From a virus: a stretch of DNA of 39,506 nucleotides. The stretch is from positions 1 to 39,506 of IMG/VR virus record IMGVR_UViG_3300044630_000578. The stretch is one strand, 5' to 3'. Of this stretch, positions 1 through 34,726 are shown piece after piece (position 1 is the stretch's first letter; every line of letters begins with the position of its first letter). The notes beneath the pieces were generated by a model. That model was not told where the DNA came from. It did not search any database and saw only the letters and a program-made list of their open reading frames with translations. The translations under genes were made by a program, and so were the position numbers.

Positions 1-416
1 GTACACAAACTTCTACTTACAATCATTGGCTGTTTTATAACGGAAATGGAATTGTTGGAAATATCAACACTTCAGGCTCAGCTACAGCTTATGTAACATC
101 TTCAGACTATCGTTTAAAAGAAAACATTGCACCAATGACAGGTGCTTTAGCTAAAATAACTCAACTTAAACCTGTTACTTATACATGGAAATCTGACGGC
201 ACAGAAAGTCAAGGATTTATTGCCCATGAACTTCAAGCAGTAGTGCCTGATTGCGTAATTGGTGAAAAAGATGCGGTAGATGAAGATGGAAACATTAAAC
301 CACAAGGTGTTGATACATCATTTTTGGTGGCTACTCTTACAGCAGCAATCCAAGAACTCAAAGCAATCGTAGATACACAAGCAATCGAAATCGCTGCATT
401 AAAAGGAACTGAATAA
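1..416 (+). CDS. Tail fibre C-terminal end with S74 intramolecular chaperone (5' partial)
   Basis: The reading frame is open from base 3 with no start codon, so this is the 3' end of a gene entering from the left edge. The segment SSDYRLKENI followed by LKPVTYTW and GFIAHELQAVVPDC is the signature of the peptidase S74 chaperone found at the end of phage tail fibres and spikes. In that family the domain trimerises the fibre and then cuts itself off at the Ser-Asp just before YRLKEN; here that is the second Ser of SSDYRLKEN. The last 30 residues are predicted coiled coil (AAIQELKAIVDTQ). Joined to the fibre frame at the right edge of the window the codon phase matches, giving about 913 residues. 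The next fibre-like gene starts at its last base (TAATG). The family call is strong; the identity of the missing N-terminal part is inferred. Confidence 0.9.
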   Translation, partial: TQTSTYNHWLFYNGNGIVGNINTSGSATAYVTSSDYRLKENIAPMTGALAKITQLKPVTYTWKSDGTESQGFIAHELQAVVPDCVIGEKDAVDEDGNIKPQGVDTSFLVATLTAAIQELKAIVDTQAIEIAALKGTE

Positions 417-20336: not shown

Positions 20337-20482
20337 GGTGCAAAGTCTGCATCTTTAATAGCTTCTAAGTATTCCTGTGCTTGATCGAGTTCTTTCTCTG
20401 CTTCACGTAGCAGTGTTCTAACAGTCGATACATGATTACCTTGTCTTAGAAGTTTAAGTACTGCTTGTTTAATCTCATCCAT
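20333..20482 (-). CDS. Small helical protein after the polymerase
   Basis: A 49-residue ORF (MDEIKQAVLKLLRQGNHVSTVRTL, then LREAEKELDQAQEYLEAIKDADFAP), likely two helices. Its ATG overlaps the polymerase stop (TGATG), so it is probably made by translational coupling. Such short coiled proteins may bind a replication partner, but nothing here proves it. Confidence 0.65.
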   Translation of the reverse strand: MDEIKQAVLKLLRQGNHVSTVRTLLREAEKELDQAQEYLEAIKDADFAP

Positions 20483-22128
20483 CAGTGTGTTTCCTTCCAT
20501 GAATTACCTACCTTGTACGCACCAGTGAGAGGGCATCGCATCTTTAGTACACGACCTGCTTCTTCAATAGCTTGTACTCCTAACTTACCTACCATATCTG
20601 CGTAGGCTTCTGCTACTTCAATCTGCCATTCGTCATGCACATTAGCAACAAACTTATAGTCGACACCGAGCTTACTCAGTCGTTCATCTAGGATCACTAG
20701 TGCTTGCTTCATGACAATCGCACCCGCACCTTGGAGAAGTGTGTTAAGTGCTGCGTGGTCAGACCTAATGTATAGTCTACGTCCATCAAGACCTGGTAAT
20801 GATCCCGACGACTTGCAGATTCTAGCCACTTTCTCCCTAAGTGCTCGTAGTTTCGGGGTGTTTTCCAAAAAAGAATCAATAAGCTTTTGTCCTTCTCGTG
20901 CTCCAGCACCCACAACTTTCCCGATCTTGGCAGCCCCTGCACCATAGAGGAATGCATAGATAAACGTCTTCGCTTGAGAACGTGTTTCGAGTCCAGCAGC
21001 TTTCTGGTTGGCAGTGTGGATATCACCTTGTGTGACCTCATAAATATACGCATCGTCTTCCATGTAGTGAGCAAGCATTCGTAGTTCTAATCCTGAAGCA
21101 TCGATGCCTACTAACTTATATCCTTTCTCTACAATCCAAAGATCCCTACAATCTTCTCCGTAGGGGCTACCACAACTAGGTACTTGTGCCATGTTAGGGC
21201 TGTGGTGTGTCATTCGTCCAGTGACTGCACCATTCGTTATTACCTTACCACGCACCCTACCATCAGGCTGTACTACCTTTAACCACGATTGAATCTGTGC
21301 TATTCTTTTCTGTAGTAACAAGTACTCAGCGATAGCTTTAGCTTCAGGAAAATCTAAGCCTTCGAGCGTCCCTTCGTCGACGATGGGCTGACCTGTTTCC
21401 GTATACTTGTCTGGTTTCCAACCCTTTTCTTGAAGTCTTTCACCAATTTGCTTTCTACTTCCTGGGTTAAAGGGTTCGATGATTGGCTTAAGAGGCTTGC
21501 CTGTTTTCTCTGAGACTCGTAAGATTGTCTTGGTTGGAAAAATGTTTTGAAGCTCAGTTTCAAGAACAACCAACTTATTTTGCAGCGTTGAAAGAAGAAT
21601 GATAGCATTCCTTTCGTTGAGTTTGAAACCACTTTCTTCTTGCTTTGCGATGACCGCTTGTACATTGTGCTCAAGTTTAATACTCCTCTCTTCAAATTTA
21701 TTTCTAGTTAATTCATTAGTTAAATGTAAATACAACTTCTCAGTTACTAAGGTATCTTGGATACAATAAGCTTTCATCTCAGCAGAATACCCAGCATCCC
21801 AATCATTGAAGTCTCCCTTAGGAAAACCTAAGCGTCCACCCCATGCAGCAAGACTATGTCCTCCTTCTAGACTTGGACTTAGGAGGCGACTTAGTACGAG
21901 CGTGTCGAACATCTGGCTCTGCTTCATCGTAATGTTCCAGTTCTTTCTCAGTACTGGGGCATCGAAGCATATTCCGTTGTGCATGATAATCAAATCGCAA
22001 CTGTCCAAATACTTTTGTAACCCGCTTGCTTCCTTCCATACTGTTACGTCTCCTCCTATTTCTCTAGTAACACACATCCAAATCTTATTGTGTGTGCTGT
22101 TGGTTTCTATATCTAAAATTATTTGCAT
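20482..22128 (-). CDS. Family A DNA polymerase (T7-like)
   Basis: A 548-residue replicative polymerase. Exonuclease domain: Asp6 and Glu8 (LDIETN), FD at 55-56 (HNGICFD) and Tyr121/Asp125 (YCIQD). Polymerase domain: GRMTHHSPNMAQVP at 304-317, motif A LVGIDASGLELRMLAHYM at 339-356, the O-helix R383..K387..Y391...YG396 (AKTFIYAFLYGAG), and motif C VANVHDEW at 494-501 with the two catalytic acids. T7 polymerase has 704 residues; this one is much shorter, with reduced linker and no obvious thioredoxin-binding insertion, so its processivity factor must differ. Neighbours (SSB, exonuclease, primase-helicase) complete a T7-type replisome. Confidence 0.96.
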   Translation of the reverse strand: MQIILDIETNSTHNKIWMCVTREIGGDVTVWKEASGLQKYLDSCDLIIMHNGICFDAPVLRKNWNITMKQSQMFDTLVLSRLLSPSLEGGHSLAAWGGRLGFPKGDFNDWDAGYSAEMKAYCIQDTLVTEKLYLHLTNELTRNKFEERSIKLEHNVQAVIAKQEESGFKLNERNAIILLSTLQNKLVVLETELQNIFPTKTILRVSEKTGKPLKPIIEPFNPGSRKQIGERLQEKGWKPDKYTETGQPIVDEGTLEGLDFPEAKAIAEYLLLQKRIAQIQSWLKVVQPDGRVRGKVITNGAVTGRMTHHSPNMAQVPSCGSPYGEDCRDLWIVEKGYKLVGIDASGLELRMLAHYMEDDAYIYEVTQGDIHTANQKAAGLETRSQAKTFIYAFLYGAGAAKIGKVVGAGAREGQKLIDSFLENTPKLRALREKVARICKSSGSLPGLDGRRLYIRSDHAALNTLLQGAGAIVMKQALVILDERLSKLGVDYKFVANVHDEWQIEVAEAYADMVGKLGVQAIEEAGRVLKMRCPLTGAYKVGNSWKETH

Positions 22129-23261: not shown

Positions 23262-23389
23262 ATTACCACCGTAGCACAGACAGTACAGCTCATTGTTCTA
23301 CCATCAGGATGTACCACTACAGTGGACGCACAAGCCATGCTATTATTATACACTAACATAGCAGCTACTGCAAGTAATATCTTCTTCAT
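23252..23389 (-). CDS. Tiny exported cysteine-rich protein
   Basis: A 45-residue ORF with a signal peptide (MKKILLAVAAMLVYNNSMAC) and a short mature part (ASTVVVHPDGRTMSC, then TVCATVVICQ) holding three more cysteines. The pattern of signal peptide, C, V..PDGR...C..C recalls small exported phage proteins placed near helicase genes. Cleavage may be by signal peptidase I after Ala, or as a lipoprotein at Cys20 (the site is a poor lipobox). Its ATG overlaps the helicase stop (ATGA). Confidence 0.68.
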   Translation of the reverse strand: MKKILLAVAAMLVYNNSMACASTVVVHPDGRTMSCTVCATVVICQ

Positions 23390-25023
23390 AATGTCTTCTC
23401 CTCAGGAGGGAGCTCAGTCATTCTACCTGTATCACGCTTATACAAGAGACGACAAGCCAACCCAGTTAAACCACTAAAGCGATTCTTCAATACTCGGACG
23501 TAGGTAGTGTTACGCTCCTGCTCGTTCTCATGCTGTCCGTTACGCTCCAGTCCAATCACCATGTCTGATAGCTGAGCAATAGAACCTGAACCACGTAGCT
23601 GTGCCAGGGATGTAGCAGCCCCTTCCTCATGCCCCTTAGATTCGGGACGCTTAAGGTGAGACACTACAAACAAAGCAATGCCAGTCTCTTGCACAATGGT
23701 ACGAAGCTTAGTCATGATCTCGTCTAAAGCTTTTCTTTCGTCGCCATTCTCCTGAGCAGATACCACAATCGATACGTGATCAAGAAATACATAACGACAA
23801 TTGAGACCTTTTGCCATGAATCGTACTCGGTTGATAATATTGTCAATGGCGGTAGACCCAAAATGATCAAACAAAAATACACGATCAGTTCCAAGGGTAG
23901 CATCAAATGCATAGCGTAGTTCCTCCTCTTCAACTTCACAATCAGGTAAGTGTAATGGTTTATTTGCAGCAAGTGACATCAAACTCTTAGCAGTTTTCTT
24001 GACTGATTCTTCTAAGAACATAAGACCAATGTTATCCTCAGTCTTATTCAAGATCTGCCACACAATCTCCCGCATAAACTGAGACTTACCTAGTCCAGAT
24101 CCTGCAGTCACTGTCACCAATTCTCCTAAGCGAATACCATAGGTAAGATTGTTCATTCCATAGTACGGATACTGTACCTCAGCCTTCTCTACTGGCTGGT
24201 TAACTAGCTCCCACAATGTAGAACCTGCTATGATACCATCAGGTACATACTTCTCAGCATCCCACCACTGCTCAACAAACTCCTTCGTTAAACCACGAAT
24301 CAAGTAATCATTAGCATCCTTAATCTCAGGTTGTTTGAACTTAAAGATGTGTGCCTTACTACCAAACAACTCAGCAACTTGGTTGGCTGCTTGCTGTCCT
24401 GGCTCATCGTTATCAAAGCAGATCACAATCTTCTCAAAGGAATCTAGATACTCAAAGCTGGCACGACAATCCTTTAATGCTGACGTAGCACCACTACGAA
24501 TAGATACCACTGGGTAGCGAGAACCTGTCAACTGATAGCAAGCTAAGGCATCAAACTCCCCTTCGGTAATCGTGATAGCCCTACCACCTGGAGTAAACTT
24601 GTTCTGTCCAAACAGTACAGCACTCTTCCAATCCCCAATCACACTGAATTCCTTAGCAGTAATGGAGCGAGTCTTCGCAGCCACCACCTTACCAGTGATA
24701 TCACAATATGGAAAGTAATAGCTAGAGCTATCAGAACCTGCACCAAAGAAGTGCATAGTCTGTGTAGTAATACCACGCTCTACAACTGGGTTTGCTTCTA
24801 CGTTTGCCAATGCCTCTAGAACTGTTTTAAACTGCTTAGGAGACGAGTTCTCAGCATGGGTGATACCTTCCCTTAGGACAGCCTGAACCATCGCCTCTGA
24901 GCCCTTCTTAAAGGTTGTACACTTATGACAATACTCATGCCCATCATCGTATAAACTGTTAGCATCCGAAGATCCACAGTTAGTACATGGTATGTGTTTT
25001 AAAAAGTTACTATCTGTTTTCAT
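23386..25023 (-). CDS. Primase-helicase (T7 gp4-like)
   Basis: A 545-residue bifunctional protein. Zinc finger: Cys13, Cys16, Cys32, Cys35 (PCTNCG...YCHKC). TOPRIM primase core: TITEGEFDAL (Glu154, Glu156) and ICFDNDEPGQ (Asp204, Asp206). RecA-like helicase: Walker A TAGSGLGKS at 306-314, Walker B-like VFLDHVS near 410, and SHLKRP near 450 plus QLRGSGSIAQLSD motif. It unwinds DNA and makes primers for the polymerase. It is 20 residues shorter than T7 gp4 (566). It overlaps genes on both sides by four bases. Confidence 0.95.
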   Translation of the reverse strand: MKTDSNFLKHIPCTNCGSSDANSLYDDGHEYCHKCTTFKKGSEAMVQAVLREGITHAENSSPKQFKTVLEALANVEANPVVERGITTQTMHFFGAGSDSSSYYFPYCDITGKVVAAKTRSITAKEFSVIGDWKSAVLFGQNKFTPGGRAITITEGEFDALACYQLTGSRYPVVSIRSGATSALKDCRASFEYLDSFEKIVICFDNDEPGQQAANQVAELFGSKAHIFKFKQPEIKDANDYLIRGLTKEFVEQWWDAEKYVPDGIIAGSTLWELVNQPVEKAEVQYPYYGMNNLTYGIRLGELVTVTAGSGLGKSQFMREIVWQILNKTEDNIGLMFLEESVKKTAKSLMSLAANKPLHLPDCEVEEEELRYAFDATLGTDRVFLFDHFGSTAIDNIINRVRFMAKGLNCRYVFLDHVSIVVSAQENGDERKALDEIMTKLRTIVQETGIALFVVSHLKRPESKGHEEGAATSLAQLRGSGSIAQLSDMVIGLERNGQHENEQERNTTYVRVLKNRFSGLTGLACRLLYKRDTGRMTELPPEEKTL

Positions 25024-25247: not shown

Positions 25248-25456
25248 TTTATCCCATGTCTATGTTCAATTGCTCTAGCGAATGCTATGATATCTCCAGC
25301 AGTATTCATACGAGTGCCTTGAATCTCCTCAGTAGTTAAGGGTTTAGGTTTCCATATCATCTTAGCAGGATTCATACCAGTGTACTTGGGAGTAGGACTA
25401 ACTACTGCATCCTCATATCCTGGATGATAAGGTGCTTCATCGACTAGTTTATTCAT
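25244..25456 (-). CDS. Small early protein, unknown function
   Basis: A 70-residue protein, Pro-rich at the start (LVDEAPYHPGYEDAVVSPTPKYTGMNPAKMIW) with a helix at the end (TAGDIIAFARAIEHRHGIK). No membrane or metal motif. Its ATG lies inside the end of the preceding 54-residue gene. The end helix (FARAIEHRHG) recurs in phage proteins of unknown role. Confidence 0.65.
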   Translation of the reverse strand: MNKLVDEAPYHPGYEDAVVSPTPKYTGMNPAKMIWKPKPLTTEEIQGTRMNTAGDIIAFARAIEHRHGIK

Positions 25457-25613
25457 AGCTGAACTCCGCAGTAGTATCGTGTTCTTTTAATCTAAAGTTC
25501 CAGGCATCAACGATATCTTGTAGGACTACATCGATACCATAGCGACCAGCACAATCAATCATGTTTTGTAGTGCGAAGTGGTAATGCATTTCTTCTTCGT
25601 AGTTATCTTCCAT
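25449..25613 (-). CDS. Small early protein, unknown function
   Basis: A 54-residue ORF (MEDNYEEEMHYHFALQNMIDC, then AGRYGIDVVLQDIVDAW, ending EHDTTAEFSYE). It is acidic and helical. A strong GAGGAG ribosome site is eight bases upstream and is itself the last copy of a 13-base tandem repeat. It is the first gene after the leftward promoter at 25700-25728. Confidence 0.68.
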   Translation of the reverse strand: MEDNYEEEMHYHFALQNMIDCAGRYGIDVVLQDIVDAWNFRLKEHDTTAEFSYE

Positions 25614-25615
25614 AG

Positions 25616-25653
25616 TTTACTCCTCAGTTTAGCTCCTAAGTTTAACTCCTAAG
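25616..25653 (-). repeat. 13-base tandem repeat containing ribosome-site sequences
   Basis: TTTAGCTCCTAAG (25628-25640) and TTTAACTCCTAAG (25641-25653) are adjacent copies differing at one base; TTTACTCCTCAG (25616-25627) is a shorter third copy. On the minus RNA each copy reads CTTAGGAG or CTGAGGAG, a Shine-Dalgarno-like sequence. Only the last copy is at the right distance from the 54-residue gene. Confidence 0.75.
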
Positions 25654-25695
25654 TATACACTATATAAAATACAATCTATATAAATACTACTTAGT
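25648..25695. repeat. 48-base leader element, copy 1
   Basis: Begins CCTAAGTA and ends ACTACTTAGT, with an AT-rich centre rich in TATA. The inner 7-mers CTAAGTA and TACTTAG are perfect inverted repeats. A second element of exactly the same length and same ends is at 29757-29804. Here it lies five bases downstream of the leftward promoter -10 box, in the leader of the 54-residue gene. Confidence 0.7.
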
Positions 25696-25699
25696 AGAT

Positions 25700-25728
25700 A
25701 GTATAGCATATTTAAATATCATTGTCAA
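25700..25728 (-). promoter_or_regulatory. Leftward sigma70 promoter
   Basis: On the minus strand TTGACA (25723-25728), 17 bases ending TATGC, and TATACT (25700-25705) form a near-consensus promoter with a TATGnTATA(A/C)T extended -10. The -35 lies in the last codons of the 80-residue gene. It would drive 25613 downwards, including helicase and polymerase. Confidence 0.85.
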
Positions 25729-25954
25729 CCCTATTATCCACACGACCAAAAGAATCATACTCGTTACTATCCATTCCTTCGTCTCCTTCGTAATCTTCGT
25801 CTTCATCGTACAGGTCTGCTCTTTCATAAGTTAGTAAGTCATCACTGACAGTAGCGTAACATTTATTACACATGTCTAAGTACTCATTGGTATGTACACT
25901 CTTACGTGTAGCCTCAAAATCTGACAGCATTTTATTACAGCAGTAGCATCTCAT
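25712..25954 (-). CDS. Small zinc-ribbon-like acidic protein
   Basis: An 80-residue protein with two cysteine pairs, MRCYCCNKMLS at the N-terminus and LDMCNKCYATVSDD at about 26-39, spaced as a zinc ribbon, followed by a long acidic tail (ERADLYDEDEDYEGDEGMDSNEYD). The tail mimics DNA charge, as in some phage anti-host proteins, but this is inference. It ends inside the -35 region of the promoter at 25700-25728. Confidence 0.72.
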   Translation of the reverse strand: MRCYCCNKMLSDFEATRKSVHTNEYLDMCNKCYATVSDDLLTYERADLYDEDEDYEGDEGMDSNEYDSFGRVDNRVDNDI

Positions 25955-26142
25955 AGCAGTGCATCCCCTAAGTTTTTATAAGCCCAGTTAAATTTATTCT
26001 CAGCGTTGCGTTTACGCTCTATCCCAAGTACTTGAATCTTAAAGCTTTTATCTAGTCTTAGGAATCTCTCTGCCTCTTCTTTATAACCAAAGATTCTAAC
26101 GACTGACCCATCACTGTCTAAAATCTTATATAACTTTCTCAT
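25951..26142 (-). CDS. Small early protein, unknown function
   Basis: A 63-residue protein read from the ATG at 26142 (MRKLYKILDSDGSVVRIFGYKEEAERFLRLDKSFKIQVL, ending NKFNWAYKNLGDALL). GGAG is 11 bases upstream, and the ATG overlaps the stop of the gene before it (ATGA), so I reject a longer hydrophobic in-frame extension. The beta-beta-alpha pattern YKILDSDGSVVR.F..KEEAE.FL resembles small phage proteins that share a GYKEEAERFL type motif. Confidence 0.7.
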   Translation of the reverse strand: MRKLYKILDSDGSVVRIFGYKEEAERFLRLDKSFKIQVLGIERKRNAENKFNWAYKNLGDALL

Positions 26143-26264
26143 TGTAGTACTCCGTATAAGTAACAGGATAATTCTAACCCAATATAGTATAGCACATGAC
26201 CACCAAAGTAAGCAAGAGCAAACCATAAAATATATTTAATGTACTTGTCTTCGTTATTAATCAT
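26139..26264 (-). CDS. Tiny membrane protein
   Basis: A 41-residue ORF: MINNEDKYIKYILWFALAYF, then GGHVLYYIGLELSCYLYG. One or two membrane segments fill most of it. An alternative ATG three codons upstream is too close to GAGG to be preferred. It overlaps both neighbours (TAATAA region upstream, ATGA downstream). Function unknown. Confidence 0.6.
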   Translation of the reverse strand: MINNEDKYIKYILWFALAYFGGHVLYYIGLELSCYLYGVLQ

Positions 26265-26382
26265 ACCAATCATCCTCATCAATGAAGTCCGTCTCATCTA
26301 ACTCAAGCTCTAGCTCCTCCAATTCCTCCTCAGTTAATTCATCCTCAGGTTCATAGTAACTATCGTTATTATATCTATTCAT
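26257..26382 (-). CDS. Tiny highly acidic protein
   Basis: A 41-residue ORF with 17 Asp/Glu (MNRYNNDSYYEPEDELTEEE, then LEELELELDETDFIDEDDWYD). GAGGAG lies before the ATG. Such a strongly acidic tiny protein could mimic DNA and bind a host nucleic-acid protein, which is inference. It overlaps the zinc protein before it by eight bases. Confidence 0.62.
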   Translation of the reverse strand: MNRYNNDSYYEPEDELTEEELEELELELDETDFIDEDDWYD

Positions 26383-26557
26383 TATTAAACTCCTCATGGT
26401 ATTGTCTTAATTGATTACACATATCTTCCATACTAGCAAAGCATGTAGGACAGAATGCAACATACAGTATTCCAAAGTATCCGTCAATACCTCCTTCACC
26501 ATCAAGAGAGAATTCACAAGAGCACACATTACATTTACTTAAACTATCGTCTTCCAT
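26375..26557 (-). CDS. Small zinc-finger-like protein
   Basis: A 60-residue protein with KCNVCSCEF at residues 8-16 and FCPTC at about 35-39, forming a probable four-cysteine zinc site, then a helix (SMEDMCNQLRQYHEEFNNE). The loop between pairs is Gly-rich (SLDGEGGIDGYFGIL). No family is named. It overlaps the gene before it by 19 bases and the gene after it by eight. Confidence 0.7.
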   Translation of the reverse strand: MEDDSLSKCNVCSCEFSLDGEGGIDGYFGILYVAFCPTCFASMEDMCNQLRQYHEEFNNE

Positions 26558-26772
26558 TTTCTAATCCTCTCTGATAATACAATAGGTTTGCTCCAATCTG
26601 TATCACCTCCCTTACGAGGGTAAGCGACAATACTTTCGTGGTCATCCTCCAGTGTAAAGTTAATCTCCCAGTTACGAGTAGCCCAAAACCAATCTCCCTG
26701 GTATTTAATCTCTTCATCAAACTGATTCCAAAGTATATCAGCGATCCGTCTAAGGTGATTAAGCTTACTCAT
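26539..26772 (-). CDS. Small early protein, unknown function
   Basis: A 77-residue protein: helix MSKLNHLRRIADILWNQFDEEI, then a Trp-rich strand region (YQGDWFWATRNWEINFTLEDDHESIVAYPRK) and a basic end (RIRKWKTIV). It follows the 74-residue gene with one base between them. The F.L.DD..SIVAYPR pattern suggests a compact alpha/beta fold; no family is recognised. Confidence 0.66.
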   Translation of the reverse strand: MSKLNHLRRIADILWNQFDEEIKYQGDWFWATRNWEINFTLEDDHESIVAYPRKGGDTDWSKPIVLSERIRKWKTIV

Positions 26773-26773
26773 C

Positions 26774-26998
26774 TTACACTCCTATATCAGCAATGATGTT
26801 CTCAAATTCCTCTTCCAAATCTTCTATCTCTTCCTCTGTCAAGTCTACATAACAGGGCTCAAGATCGTAATCCCAACCACCTTGCCCTTCGTCATCCAGG
26901 TTATACCAGTAGGTAACCTCAATCTTCTTACCTTCTACATCAACAATATACATAGCGTTAACTGTCTTCGATACTAATACAGGGTCTTTAATTCTCAT
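26774..26998 (-). CDS. Small acidic protein, unknown function
   Basis: A 74-residue protein: MRIKDPVLVSKTVNAMYIVDVEGKKIEVTYWYNLDDEGQGGWDYDLEP, then LTEEEIEDLEEEFENIIADIGV. The first half is beta-rich, the end an acidic helix. AGGAG is eight bases before the ATG. The end helix is much like those of other early proteins here and could bind a basic host partner. Confidence 0.68.
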   Translation of the reverse strand: MRIKDPVLVSKTVNAMYIVDVEGKKIEVTYWYNLDDEGQGGWDYDLEPCYVDLTEEEIEDLEEEFENIIADIGV

Positions 26999-27007
26999 AG
27001 TATTCTC

Positions 27008-27292
27008 CTAAGTATTCCATAAGTTTAAGGTTACAATCTCTCGTTGTGCTTCTGCTCTGATCTCGTTCAACTCCTCAGCAATATATGATCCGTCAATATC
27101 CCTGATCCAGCCACTACCAAACCACTGCTTAACCCTATGATCGAAGTATAAGTCTACCCAATTCTCACCCCAAAGTACAGTGATATCTGTATTACCCTTA
27201 CTTATCTCTTCACCTACTGCCCTCATTACCTGGGCATAACTAGGTTTTCTACCATCGAATACAATCTCTTTAATCTGATTACATACGCTCAT
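27008..27292 (-). CDS. Small early protein, unknown function
   Basis: A 94-residue protein starting at ATG 27292 (MSVCNQIKEIVFDGRKPSYAQ...). A TTG six codons upstream also opens the frame, but the GAGGAGGG ribosome site is placed for the ATG and covers the TTG. The protein has ITVLWGENWVDLYFDHRVKQWFGSGWIRD in its middle and a helix (EELNEIRAEAQREIV). Its start overlaps the end of the gene before it by 14 bases. No family recognised. Confidence 0.68.
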   Translation of the reverse strand: MSVCNQIKEIVFDGRKPSYAQVMRAVGEEISKGNTDITVLWGENWVDLYFDHRVKQWFGSGWIRDIDGSYIAEELNEIRAEAQREIVTLNLWNT

Positions 27293-27461
27293 GAATATAT
27301 CCCTCCTCAATTAAATGCCTAGCAGTACGACCAAACCACCCTTGTAATTGCCATGCCATACCAGTATCAACTAAGGTTTGCCATGCTTCAAGTACTTGCT
27401 CTTCTGTATCTGCTTCAATAAATCCCTCTGCTAATCCCACTGCTTGATAAGTATCCATCAT
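27279..27461 (-). CDS. Small early protein, helical
   Basis: A 60-residue protein: MMDTYQAVGLAEGFIEADTEEQVLEAWQTLVDTG then MAWQLQGWFGRTARHLIEEGYI. The arrangement A.GFIEA.TEEQ.LEAWQ.LVDTG..W.LQGWFGR.A..LI..G is known to me from short proteins in phages of soil and water bacteria, without a known role. Two adjacent ATG codons could each start it; GGAG lies upstream. Confidence 0.72.
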   Translation of the reverse strand: MMDTYQAVGLAEGFIEADTEEQVLEAWQTLVDTGMAWQLQGWFGRTARHLIEEGYIHERM

Positions 27462-27462
27462 T

Positions 27463-27669
27463 TTATTTAACTCCTACAATTAATCCATCATTCATAGTAA
27501 CTTCGGCAAAAAACTCTCTTCCCATTCCTGTCATATGCGGACGATTAGCACCTATTATTTTACCTGTACTAACATATTCATTACCAAAAATACTAGTCTC
27601 TATATACTTTAATCGTTGACCTACACTAGCTTTTAAATCCTTCTTACTTGCGTACTTGAATACTAACAT
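27463..27669 (-). CDS. Small early protein, unknown function
   Basis: A 68-residue basic protein: MLVFKYASKKDLKASVGQRLKYIETSIFGNEYVSTG, then KIIGANRPHMTGMGREFFAEVTMNDGLIVGVK. The pattern LK.S.G..L.Y.ETS.FG.EY...GK..GANRP..TG is one I recall from phage early regions. It has a GGAGGA ribosome site and is first after the promoter at 27701-27728. Confidence 0.7.
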   Translation of the reverse strand: MLVFKYASKKDLKASVGQRLKYIETSIFGNEYVSTGKIIGANRPHMTGMGREFFAEVTMNDGLIVGVK

Positions 27670-27700
27670 TTTTAATTCCTCCTGTTGAATTGATAAGTTA

Positions 27701-27728
27701 AGTATACTACAATTTATTACATTGTCTA
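27701..27728 (-). promoter_or_regulatory. Leftward sigma70 promoter
   Basis: On the minus strand TAGACA (27723-27728), a 16-base spacer, and TATACT (27701-27706). The start would be about 27694, 25 bases before the 68-residue gene. It lies in the 66-base gap after the GP88-like gene. Confidence 0.7.
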
Positions 27729-27735
27729 TAGGTGT

Positions 27736-28377
27736 TTACCCTAATGCCATAATCTTAATAACCTTTGCCATCTTAACTCCATGGGCTTTATATGCTATCA
27801 CGCTCACGCTCTTATCGTAACATGCTCTACACCCATTACATTTACCTTCATGCTGGTATGCTTGGCATTCTGTAGCACCTACTGGTAAGGTATCGCTGAA
27901 TATTGTACTAGTGTTTAAACCCTCTACAAGCTCACCAGTGACACTATCGCTAGAGAATCGTACCACTACATTAGAAAGCATCTGCATCTCTGCTATGATC
28001 GGTTTAAACTTGTCAAACTTATGCATTCTAGTAGGTAGCCAATGCTTAACCCATGGAGTAAGTAACATTACTTTACGAATTTTCTTAGCTAGTCTAATGT
28101 CATACATGTCGCCACTATCAAACCATCTAAAGTATCTACTAGAATCTAAAGCTTTTACCATGTCATCTATCCAGTCGTCACGCTTCCAGTCTTCCCTATT
28201 GAATTCTCTAGGCTTCTTAACATTAGCGAAGCGATAGTTTCCAGTCGTAGCGTAACAACCTTGGCATGCTGGTACTAAGTTACCTGTAGAATCCTTACTA
28301 CCTGGGCAAGTGTCTAAAGCCTGAAGACTCCATGACATAATGCCATCTAGCTTACTTGTTTTACTTAGTTTAATCAT
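27736..28377 (-). CDS. Cysteine-rich GP88-like protein
   Basis: A 213-residue protein: LSKTSKLDGIMSWSLQALDTCPGS at the start, then ACQGCYATTGNYRFANVKKPREFNREDW, a central FRWFDSGDMYDIRLAKKIRKV, LPTRMHKFDKF and a C-terminal ECQAYQHEGKCNGCRACYD. This matches the phage family Gene product 88. Cysteines 24, 38 and 41, and 171, 180, 183 and 186, look like two metal or iron-sulfur sites. The centre (WFDSGDMYD..; T.WLPTRM.K) has charged residues spaced as in an enzyme. Function is not established for the family. Its start overlaps the stop of a 40-residue gene (ATGA). Confidence 0.72.
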   Translation of the reverse strand: MIKLSKTSKLDGIMSWSLQALDTCPGSKDSTGNLVPACQGCYATTGNYRFANVKKPREFNREDWKRDDWIDDMVKALDSSRYFRWFDSGDMYDIRLAKKIRKVMLLTPWVKHWLPTRMHKFDKFKPIIAEMQMLSNVVVRFSSDSVTGELVEGLNTSTIFSDTLPVGATECQAYQHEGKCNGCRACYDKSVSVIAYKAHGVKMAKVIKIMALG

Positions 28378-28496
28378 TTTTTTACCTTTATAATTTTAGA
28401 TATAACTGTAATGCCATCATTAAATTGTGCCATAAATCTAGCCTCTTTAAGTGTCTTAAATTTAAACACTTTCCCATTAACTGTAAATTGGTACAT
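28374..28496 (-). CDS. Tiny basic protein
   Basis: A 40-residue ORF (MYQFTVNGKVFKFKTLKEAR, then FMAQFNDGITVISKIIKVKK) with a GGAGG site upstream. Predicted beta-beta-alpha-beta; the NGK.FKFKTLKEARFMA part is like small phage proteins with a K..EA.. helix. It is translationally coupled to the GP88-like gene and is first after the operator-promoter at 28523-28563. Confidence 0.65.
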   Translation of the reverse strand: MYQFTVNGKVFKFKTLKEARFMAQFNDGITVISKIIKVKK

Positions 28497-28522
28497 ACCC
28501 TAATCCTCCATCGTTATTAATA

Positions 28523-28563
28523 AATATACTCTAGGGTTTTGAAACAGTCAAGTAAAACCCTAG
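28523..28563 (-). promoter_or_regulatory. Leftward promoter overlapped by CTAGGGTTTT inverted repeat
   Basis: On the minus strand TTGACT (28546-28551), 17 bases, TATATT (28523-28528). A perfect 10-base inverted repeat, CTAGGGTTTT (28531-28540) and AAAACCCTAG (28554-28563), brackets the -35 box. That is the geometry of a repressor or activator site. Confidence 0.75.
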
Positions 28564-28578
28564 ATATATCTACTAAAA

Positions 28579-28767
28579 TTAATCTAATTGATAGTTAACC
28601 TCTTTAAGTGAGCCAGTCCCGTCTAGCATGTCTTCTAAAATTTTTACAGTTTTACCTTGATTACGATACATTCTAGCTGTTATTTCTGCTCGTTTTAAAC
28701 TACCATAATAGTCAATATATTTATCGTCTACATAAAGCCTGAAAATTTCTGGTGTTATTTCTCTCAT
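28579..28767 (-). CDS. Small early protein, unknown function
   Basis: A 62-residue protein (MREITPEIFRLYVDDKYIDYYGSLKRAEITARMYRNQGKTV, then KILEDMLDGTGSLKEVNYQLD). The pattern FRLYVD.KYIDYYGSLK.AEI.A..YR.QGKTVKI resembles a small phage fold with a helix and strands that also occurs in the 63-residue gene at 25951. It overlaps nothing but lies two bases after the gene before it. Confidence 0.68.
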   Translation of the reverse strand: MREITPEIFRLYVDDKYIDYYGSLKRAEITARMYRNQGKTVKILEDMLDGTGSLKEVNYQLD

Positions 28768-28769
28768 AA

Positions 28770-28895
28770 TTAACCCTCCAATATTTTATCGTGTAATTGT
28801 TTAGCTTCTTCCTGTCGTTGAATACTTTCCGAAGTCTTGTATTCTAACCAAAGTAATTCCATCAAAATATTACGCTCTTTTAAAGTTAATTCCAT
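28770..28895 (-). CDS. Tiny helical protein
   Basis: A 41-residue ORF (MELTLKERNILMELLWLEYK, then TSESIQRQEEAKQLHDKILEG), all helix. GGAGGG precedes the ATG, and a promoter lies 21 bases upstream of it. No family recognised. Confidence 0.63.
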   Translation of the reverse strand: MELTLKERNILMELLWLEYKTSESIQRQEEAKQLHDKILEG

Positions 28896-28916
28896 ATACC
28901 CTCCGTTAGTGTTTTA

Positions 28917-28951
28917 AGAATACCCTAGTCAACTGATTTAGTCTACTAGGG
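28917..28951 (-). promoter_or_regulatory. Leftward promoter with CCCTAGT/ACTAGGG operator
   Basis: On the minus strand TAGACT (28940-28945), a 17-base spacer and TATTCT (28917-28922). A 29-base palindrome CCCTAGTnnACT-5-AGTnnACTAGGG spans 28923-28951 and covers spacer and -35. It shares the CCCTAG core with the site at 28531-28563. A second TTGACT (28927-28932) lies within it. Confidence 0.68.
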
Positions 28952-28958
28952 CAAACCC

Positions 28959-29144
28959 TTACTTCAATACTTCAAAGCTTTCTCTTTTTAACTTATCATA
29001 TAAAGCTGTAAATTTTGCAATATCTCTATCAAACATCTCTACCATATCAGGATAAGCCTTTAAAATTTCTTTGGCTTCTTCTAATGCTTTAATTTTATGG
29101 TTAATTGTAGTTCTTAAATCCCATAGTTCTTCCCATGTAAACAT
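28959..29144 (-). CDS. First gene of the leftward arm, small helical protein
   Basis: A 61-residue protein, all helix: MFTWEELWDLRTTINHKIKALEEAKEILKAYPD, then MVEMFDRDIAKFTALYDKLKRESFEVLK. AAAGGAGGA precedes its ATG. The pattern T.EELW.LRTTI..KI..LEE is known from short coiled phage proteins. Being nearest the control region it should be made earliest. Confidence 0.68.
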   Translation of the reverse strand: MFTWEELWDLRTTINHKIKALEEAKEILKAYPDMVEMFDRDIAKFTALYDKLKRESFEVLK

Positions 29145-29174
29145 TTTAATTCCTCCTTTTGTTTCAGTGATCCT

Positions 29175-29203
29175 AGTATCTCAAATTCATAGGGATAAGT
29201 CAC
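29175..29203 (-). promoter_or_regulatory. First leftward promoter
   Basis: On the minus strand GTGACT (29198-29203), 17 bases, GATACT (29175-29180), a weaker match than the others. A near-palindrome AAACCCTAGGTTTT (29211-29224) lies just upstream and shares CCCTAG with the two downstream operator-like sites. Confidence 0.5.
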
Positions 29204-29693
29204 TTAGGGGAAACCCTAGGTTTTGATTGATTGTTTCTATTAAGTCCTGGATAGCGATAGAGTGACACTATAACTCCCTCACTTAGCAGATTCTAGCTAG
29301 TCTGTCTATTAGGGAAACTACCTATTGACATATACTCGAAAGTATGCTAGGGGGAGGGGGCTCTCGCAATAATCTAGTACGTTATAACCCTCTAAAACAC
29401 CTAAAAAGTTAAATTAAGAAGACTAATAAATTAAAGAAATTAGCTGAAGTTAACGACAGAAGACTACAGATAAGGAATACTATATGAATCAATAGCTTAG
29501 GAAGCTAAGGAGATAATAGAAGATGAGCTACGATAGTGCATAATAAAGGCTAGTTAGCTACAGTTGCGGAATACGTGCTAGTTTACTGGGTAGACCCGCA
29601 TCGAAGATGAGGCTTGCTGCATCACATTGTAGACACAGAAGCTACTTAGTGTACATAATGTGCTACGTAGTGAGCATCATAGTAAAATATTAC

Positions 29694-29722
29694 TTGACAA
29701 AATCTAATAAGTATGGTATAAT
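29694..29722 (+). promoter_or_regulatory. Rightward sigma70 promoter for packaging genes
   Basis: TTGACA (29694-29699), a 17-base spacer ending TATGG, and TATAAT (29717-29722): a full consensus promoter. The leader to the small terminase start is about 113 bases and contains the 48-base element and a hairpin. Confidence 0.9.
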
Positions 29723-29756
29723 AGTTGTACTAAAGAGAAAAAACGCTAAGTCAGTT

Positions 29757-29804
29757 CCTAAGTAAATACAATATAAAAACCAAATAATATAAAAACTACT
29801 TAGT
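29757..29804. repeat. 48-base leader element, copy 2
   Basis: Begins CCTAAGTA and ends ACTACTTAGT, the same ends and the same length as the element at 25648-25695; the centre is AT-rich with ATATAAAA in both. CTAAGTA and TACTTAG can pair. It lies in the leader of the terminase operon. Confidence 0.7.
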
Positions 29805-29807
29805 TAA

Positions 29808-29828
29808 CTTCTAAGTATAACTTAGAAG
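29808..29828 (+). promoter_or_regulatory. Hairpin before the small terminase gene
   Basis: CTTCTAAGT and ACTTAGAAG form a perfect 9-bp stem with an ATA loop, ending 14 bases before the ATG at 29843 and touching the AGAAGAGAAG ribosome-site region. A translation control or DNA operator role is possible. Confidence 0.6.
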
Positions 29829-29842
29829 AGAAGTAATTTTAA

Positions 29843-30271
29843 ATGTTAGTCTCTACTCACGTAGGAAAAGGCTTAGAAGTGAACTTAGAAGATAAAGAAG
29901 ATAATTCAGTTGTTGTGTCTATACCACGTAGGGGTCGTCCTCCTAAGGCTGTCGTAGAAGCGAAGCGTAAAAGAGGTAAGGTAGGTAGACCCCAGGGTGA
30001 CACAGGAAGAATACAGGAATTTAAAGCTAGACTCCTGAGTACTACTGGAACTAAGGTCATAGACACTGTCTTAAGAAAAGCCTTAGACGATGAAGATAAA
30101 GATCAGGTAGCATGTCTAAAGATGTGCATGGACAGACTTCTACCTGTCTCACTCTTTGAAAAGGATGCTAAGGGTCAGCGGAATGCTGTAACAATTAACA
30201 TCACTGGCTTGGGTGAGACTAAGGTGGAAGCTGTAGAGACCATCGACATGGAGCAAGATGATGAATCTTAA
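29843..30271 (+). CDS. Putative terminase small subunit
   Basis: A 142-residue protein just before the large terminase, which it overlaps by 14 bases. It has two short basic AT-hook-like motifs (RRGRPPK at about 29-35 and KVGRPQGD at 46-53), then RIQEFKARLLSTTGTKVIDTVLRKALDD and a helix (VACLKMCMDRLLPVSLFEK). DNA-contact motifs plus position fit the small subunit that recognises the packaging site. The pattern GRPQG..I..FKARLL...VID.VL..AL.D is familiar from proteins in this place in aquatic podoviruses. Confidence 0.78.
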   Translation: MLVSTHVGKGLEVNLEDKEDNSVVVSIPRRGRPPKAVVEAKRKRGKVGRPQGDTGRIQEFKARLLSTTGTKVIDTVLRKALDDEDKDQVACLKMCMDRLLPVSLFEKDAKGQRNAVTINITGLGETKVEAVETIDMEQDDES

Positions 30272-34649: not shown

Positions 34650-34678
34650 TTGACAAATTGTAAAAAGTATGGTATAAT
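34650..34678 (+). promoter_or_regulatory. Rightward sigma70 promoter for scaffold and capsid genes
   Basis: TTGACA (34650-34655), a 17-base spacer ending TATGG and TATAAT (34673-34678), starting four bases after the portal stop. Leader of about 40 bases to the next ATG; it contains a TCCTTG-T-CAAGGA palindrome (34706-34718) covering the ribosome site. Confidence 0.9.
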
Positions 34679-34726
34679 ATAAGTATATATTAACACAATA
34701 AACTCTCCTTGTCAAGGAAAAAGAGT

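Follow-up and report, generated by a model that had tools for sequence, protein, structure and literature searches.

The subject of this work is a pair of related elements in a virus genome, the 39,506-base IMG/VR record IMGVR_UViG_3300044630_000578 (referred to in its whole length as the window), which carries a T7-like set of replication genes. One element lies in the leader of the leftward replication operon and the other in the leader of the rightward packaging operon. Their conserved core is a box of 10 base pairs (bp), the near-dyad ACTAAGTAGT (ACTACTTAGT on the other strand) of the form ACTA-NN-TAGT, and not both arms of the longer element in which it is embedded. Given that the box is kept in both leaders, is independent of orientation, forms arrays spaced by about one helical turn and is nearly absent elsewhere, it is read here as a DNA operator. 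A conserved DNA site at two promoters that is rare in other places, with dyad symmetry and no fixed orientation, is what characterizes such an element, and from the comparison of sequences it appears somewhat probable that the 10-bp units are paired operators for one regulator, shared by the replication and packaging operons.

The leaders of relatives were compared by anchoring them on the promoters, for left and right arms, and later scans of IMG/VR provided additional left arms and divergent members. Among the 2,133 distinct ten-mers of the leaders, ACTAAGTAGT, counted on either strand, is the one best common to left and right. It is found in 23 of 27 distinct left leaders and 41 of 46 distinct right leaders, fractions that are subject to mild selection and should be taken as upper-side estimates, somewhat inflated, because the leaders had been collected in part by matches to CTAAG-like patterns. 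When similar leaders are collapsed, the box is kept in 4 of 5 left and 8 of 9 right representatives. The contigs of 20 relatives, where counting is free of this selection bias, contain 30 exact copies, 29 of which were placed within the two leaders by comparing coordinates by hand (the exception is G013:28412), while the reversed pattern, used as a control in the same contigs, gave 3 matches. The 39.5-kilobase window has two exact copies, both in the two leaders, and the matches listed in a literature search for the 10-mer were all unrelated. In both arms the promoters are almost constant across relatives and the leaders are variable, and the box is kept by dozens of relatives while nearly all of the surrounding leader sequence drifts.

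The position of the box differs between the two arms. In most left leaders it starts 4-5 nucleotides (nt) past the -10 box (15-17 nt in L050, L055, L068, L073 and L076) and, for this reason, with the usual sigma70 spacing the left box would span the start site and be only partly transcribed. The right box is mostly found 64-86 nt after the -10 box; at the clade-3 right promoter the related ATTACTTAGTAAT stands directly after the -10 box, the same place that the left box occupies elsewhere. The right box has the '<' orientation in most relatives, '>' in L062, L063, L067 and L068, and both in L060, L061 and L066. Its centre dinucleotide is usually AG/CT, and the half-sites ACTA and TAGT are kept when the centre varies, as in the array boxes ACTAATTAGT, ACTATATAGT and others. 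Copy number varies: the left leader of the window has a single box, L048 and L066 have two or three units each and L068 has seven 10-bp units. The divergent L294 has ACTATATAGT-ACTATGTAGT in tandem directly after the left -10 box. Relatives other than L068 have one to three units, and the tandem spacing of 10-13 bp is short, yet not constant across relatives.

The initial annotation had described the element as a 48-base palindromic stretch found in both leaders, and in the window this description was confirmed. The pattern CCTAAGTA-30-ACTACTTAGT is exact at 25648-25695 and 29757-29804, with one copy in the leftward replication leader and the other in the rightward packaging leader, each downstream of a strong sigma70-type promoter. 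The 7-bp inverted arms (CTAAGTA/TACTTAG) were found, as were two ATATAAA blocks in each copy, and the distances from the -10 box (4 nt on the left, 34 nt on the right) agree with those proposed. Tolerating up to 3 mismatches brought up no third match in the window, and dinucleotide shuffles of the window gave a mean of 0.05 matches, with two matches in 0 of 100. The left and right copies are identical at 39 of 48 positions (+ strand, counted by eye) and have the same genomic direction, which makes them opposite relative to transcription. In the left copy, the downstream arm (TACTTAGG) doubles as the first of three 13-bp ribosome-binding repeats of the CTTAGGAG type; each of these repeats, which run up to the gene of 54 amino acids, holds an AGGAG ribosome-binding motif, and their copy number differs among relatives.

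Outside the window this larger architecture varies. The length of 48 bases, although equal in the two window copies, is not conserved in relatives, and the search of related phages that had been suggested showed that the motif recurs but that the spacing between the arms varies. In clade 1 the first box of the left leader and the ACTTAG that follows it are 40 to 56 nt apart, and a scan of IMG/VR for CCTAAGTA-(26..34)-ACTACTTAG returned 55 stretches, mostly in this virus group. A lox-like site of site-specific recombination would call for a recombinase and for constant inverted arms flanking a spacer of fixed length; here the arm spacing differs from one relative to another. Since nothing but the 10-mer persists, the 48-mer was rejected as a conserved unit. 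Between the two arms, the AT-rich spacer shows homology in clade 1 (alignment z about 3-5), weak homology in clade 2a and none in L060, L061 and L066, and it is for this reason considered secondary. The repeat at 29808-29828, just past the right copy, was likewise rejected as a conserved hairpin, since it is a direct repeat in L009 and L110. In the complement right leader of L110 (promoter 9871, - strand), six tandem 12-bp repeats containing CTTAGAAG lie right before the terminase gene, where the window has the inverted repeat.

A shared operator and an RNA switch had both been put forward as functions of the element, and the comparative evidence points to the operator and does not support the switch. 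The predicted folds of the window 48-mers are indeed more stable than those of shuffles (-13.8 kcal/mol with z -3.75 on the left, -4.1 kcal/mol with z -2.73 on the right), as would be expected if both 5' leaders contained a cis-acting RNA hairpin serving as a switch, a processing site or an antitermination site of the nut or put kind. In agreement with this, the box is accompanied by a partner upstream of it in most right leaders, and right-leader stems survive with changed sequence in L061 (UAAGUUG/CAACUUA), L062 (ACAGAUAG/CUAUCUGU) and L080 (UUAAGUAG/CUACUUAA). Arm co-variation of the kind anticipated for such a hairpin seems to occur on the right, with compensatory-looking stems in some clades, but it fails in the left arms and where the right box is flipped. 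The left leaders of relatives have no common fold and no excess stability over shuffles (z -1.4 to +1.75), and the predicted left start falls inside the 5' arm. In left leaders the partner arm is an inverted repeat in clade 1, whereas clade 2 has the direct repeat CTAAGT in its place and no ACTTAG at all; this weakens the case for a functional hairpin, because its arms should stay complementary. In the right leaders of L062, L063, L067 and L068 the box is flipped and the upstream partner lost, the best candidate for one being no better than in shuffles. No Rfam match was obtained at gathering thresholds, and no compensatory changes preserving one fold in both leaders were found, with right stems kept in most, not all, relatives. 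A hairpin acting in both leaders is, taken together, rather unlikely; an additional RNA role in the right leader, where stems are partly kept, is possible. An alternative upstream helix seen in clade 1 (UACUAAGGAG/CUCCUAAGUA) was rejected because it is not kept in clade 2. Separately, in clade-2 right leaders (e.g., L046 and L060) the ribosome-binding site of the terminase gene is immediately preceded by a small conserved hairpin, CTGC-NNNN-GCAG, and some leaders of clade 1 (L024, L032) have a similar CTGCTTAGCAG close to the start site.

The same genomic orientation of the two copies also makes the two leader RNAs complementary, and an early left leader RNA could accordingly pair in trans with the right leader RNA and control it as an antisense. 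The predicted duplex reaches -43 kcal/mol for the window pair; for the near-identical relative L001 it reaches -45 kcal/mol, against -21 +/- 4 for shuffles. The leaders of L050/L046, in clade 2, share 20 nt of perfect complementarity. Nonetheless, swapping leader partners between genomes gives similar duplex energies, and the box in L068 and the shared motif in L294 have the same sense in both leaders. The differences between the copies are mostly T-to-A and break pairing, with no G-U bias (12 G-U-compatible versus 19 incompatible transitions), and the spacer complementarity is absent in L060, L061 and L066. These observations make antisense control improbable. It is just as improbable that the leaders act through their composition, with ribosome loading or mRNA stability governed by A-rich stretches and recurring CTWAG units, and that the identity of the box is simply inherited. 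Many leaders do have CTTAGRAG/CTAAGRAG repeats near the start codon, and the right spacer is A-rich and nearly without G, but leader composition leaves unexplained why one exact 10-mer is kept in both orientations, at shifted positions and across the left start site.

For the preferred explanation, paired DNA operators, the recognition unit would be ACTAAGTAGT with half-sites ACTA/TAGT, placed next to an AT-rich spacer either as a single copy or repeated at intervals of about one helical turn. On the left, a dimer bound over the predicted transcription start may block or modulate initiation by the host RNA polymerase, while on the right the site, usually about 60-80 nt past the -10 box, may form a roadblock or work together with its left counterpart. 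A putative dimeric protein encoded by the phage would in this way switch both operons together. Protein binding, the symmetry of the dimer, repression rather than activation, the identity of the binder and the start sites are inferred from the sequence.

Several observations, in addition to the selection in the leader sets mentioned above, speak against an operator. No convincing DNA-binding domain of the helix-turn-helix or ribbon-helix-helix type was detected with Pfam in the 30 proteins scanned, a subset of the genes in which tiny domains can escape. No clear box is seen in the left leaders of L297/L298 (clade 3), L156 and L157. Upstream of either promoter there is no conserved box, only sporadic ones (a near-match at 29641 is for this reason probably due to chance). 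Every conserved box lies on the start site or beyond it, a placement that a function of the RNA or of the leader would account for as well. Finally, ACTANNTAGT occurs twice in the window, a count that by itself is not above chance, and its enrichment as such was rejected. This last point would favor a chance likeness in AT-rich sequence, which is nonetheless extremely improbable, being refuted by the failure of all 100 shuffles to produce the pair and by the conservation across the virus group.

Short operators of this kind have precedents. The met boxes of MetJ and the heptads of the omega repressor are short dyad-like units with short spacing and variable copy number that overlap or follow the promoter, and in both systems one regulator serves several promoters. 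By analogy, the phage box is a short dyad-like unit in arrays of variable number; it differs in that the unit has 10 bp (ACTAAGTAGT), tandem copies follow one another at 10-13 bp and Pfam detected no ribbon-helix-helix regulator in the 30 proteins examined. In lambda, OL and OR place the same type of operator at two oppositely directed phage operons under one regulator. The box shares with lambdoid OL/OR its presence at two oppositely directed operons, and a single regulator is assumed by analogy, but there is no CI/Cro-like gene among the genes scanned, the sites are at or downstream of the starts and the operons are those of replication and packaging. The nutL and nutR sites of lambda are the same element in the leaders of two opposite operons, composed of boxA and a boxB hairpin in fixed orientation to transcription. 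The present element resembles them in its location, whereas no convincing boxA/boxB pair was seen by eye, the orientation of the box varies among right leaders and Rfam gave no match. The antitermination RNAs putL and putR of HK022 are similar elements downstream of both early promoters, one adjoining and one farther, of about 70 nt with two defined stem-loops (PMC9378689). The elements described here also lie past two oppositely directed promoters, one next to its promoter and one farther, but an RNA of about 70 nt with two stem-loops was not found, nor were a shared fold or covariation or an Rfam match.

The features of both leaders and the adjoining genes are collected in Table 1. TerL begins at 30258, after the gene in the small-terminase position, and the portal gene is also in the right unit. 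Two small genes adjoining the left promoter, at 25712-25954 and 25951-26226, are conserved. A third consensus promoter (12/12) is found at 34650-34715 (+) and kept in relatives; the ACTAAGTAGT box is absent from its leader, which has a conserved CTCCTTGTCAAGGA inverted repeat. The DNA ahead of the right promoter (29145-29690, about 500 bp) seems to be non-coding; it includes a GGGGGAGGGGGCTCTCGC stretch and further segments that can be recognized in relatives, and is possibly an origin or a packaging site. The 74-amino-acid acidic protein encoded at 26774-26998 (-) has a weak Pfam match to RraB, a regulator of RNase E (E 0.002, under the curated cut-off).

Table 1. Elements, promoters and genes of the two leader regions (window coordinates).
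Feature	Position	Strand	Remarks
Left 48-mer: box, AT-rich spacer with two TATATAA blocks, partner arm	25648..25695		Spacer homologous to right copy, alignment z 4.6
Left box ACTACTTAGT (+) = ACTAAGTAGT (-)	25686..25695		Centred near predicted +1; within perfect odd dyad CTACTWAGTAG at 25687-25697
Left (replication-unit) promoter TTGACA-17(TG)-TATACT	25700..25728	-	sigma70-type, 11/12 matches; kept in relatives
Three tandem 13-bp repeats with CTTAGGAG/CTGAGGAG	25620..25658	-	Shine-Dalgarno-like; first overlaps second arm of left 48-mer
First gene past left element	25449..25613	-	54 amino acids, acidic
Helicase-primase	23386-25023		Left unit, downstream of 54-amino-acid gene
DNA polymerase	20482-22128		Left unit, downstream of 54-amino-acid gene
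Right (packaging-unit) promoter TTGACA-17(TG)-TATAAT	29694..29722	+	12/12 consensus; kept in nearly all relatives with readable right leader
Initial transcribed sequence ACTAAAGAG, box-like	29729..29737	+	At predicted start (start site inferred); ACTAAGGAG in close relatives
Right 48-mer: partner arm CCTAAGTA, A-rich, nearly G-free spacer with two ATATAAAA blocks, box	29757..29804		
Right box ACTACTTAGT	29795..29804		Begins 73 nt past -10 box
Further CTAAG/CTTAG units (CTTCTAAGTATAACTTAGAAG)	29808..29828		Inverted in window; direct 12-bp repeats in relatives such as L009, L110
First gene past right element: small-terminase-position protein	29843..30271	+	AT-hook-like GRPPK motifs; position and motif by inspection

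The window has no near-DNA match among 50,697 phage records, and its TerL is less than 60% identical to every isolate-side match, meaning that this virus group has no close isolate. The helicase-primase is nearest to those of marine Pelagibacter phages (51% identity to Pelagibacter phage HTVC115P). The label "freshwater-type" for this phage is an impression from the metagenome sources. Relatives are numerous in IMG/VR, where the best 80 TerL relatives are 84-100% identical; a search of genome contigs directed at the identification of the host found no relative.

With moderate confidence, the element is regarded as a lineage-specific case of a shared phage operator, paired in divergent operons. 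A further-reaching and rather doubtful proposal is that the ACTA-NN-TAGT boxes of both leaders are bound by a structurally new small phage protein, which would set the balance of early and late expression across a widespread, uncultured group of podovirus-like phages, or that the leader RNAs additionally interact in trans, making this a dual DNA/RNA element. In a virus group without a close isolate, the box may serve as a bait for finding the regulator and, by predicting one that is shared, would offer a first handle on how replication and packaging are coordinated in phages that apparently rely on host-type sigma70 promoters.

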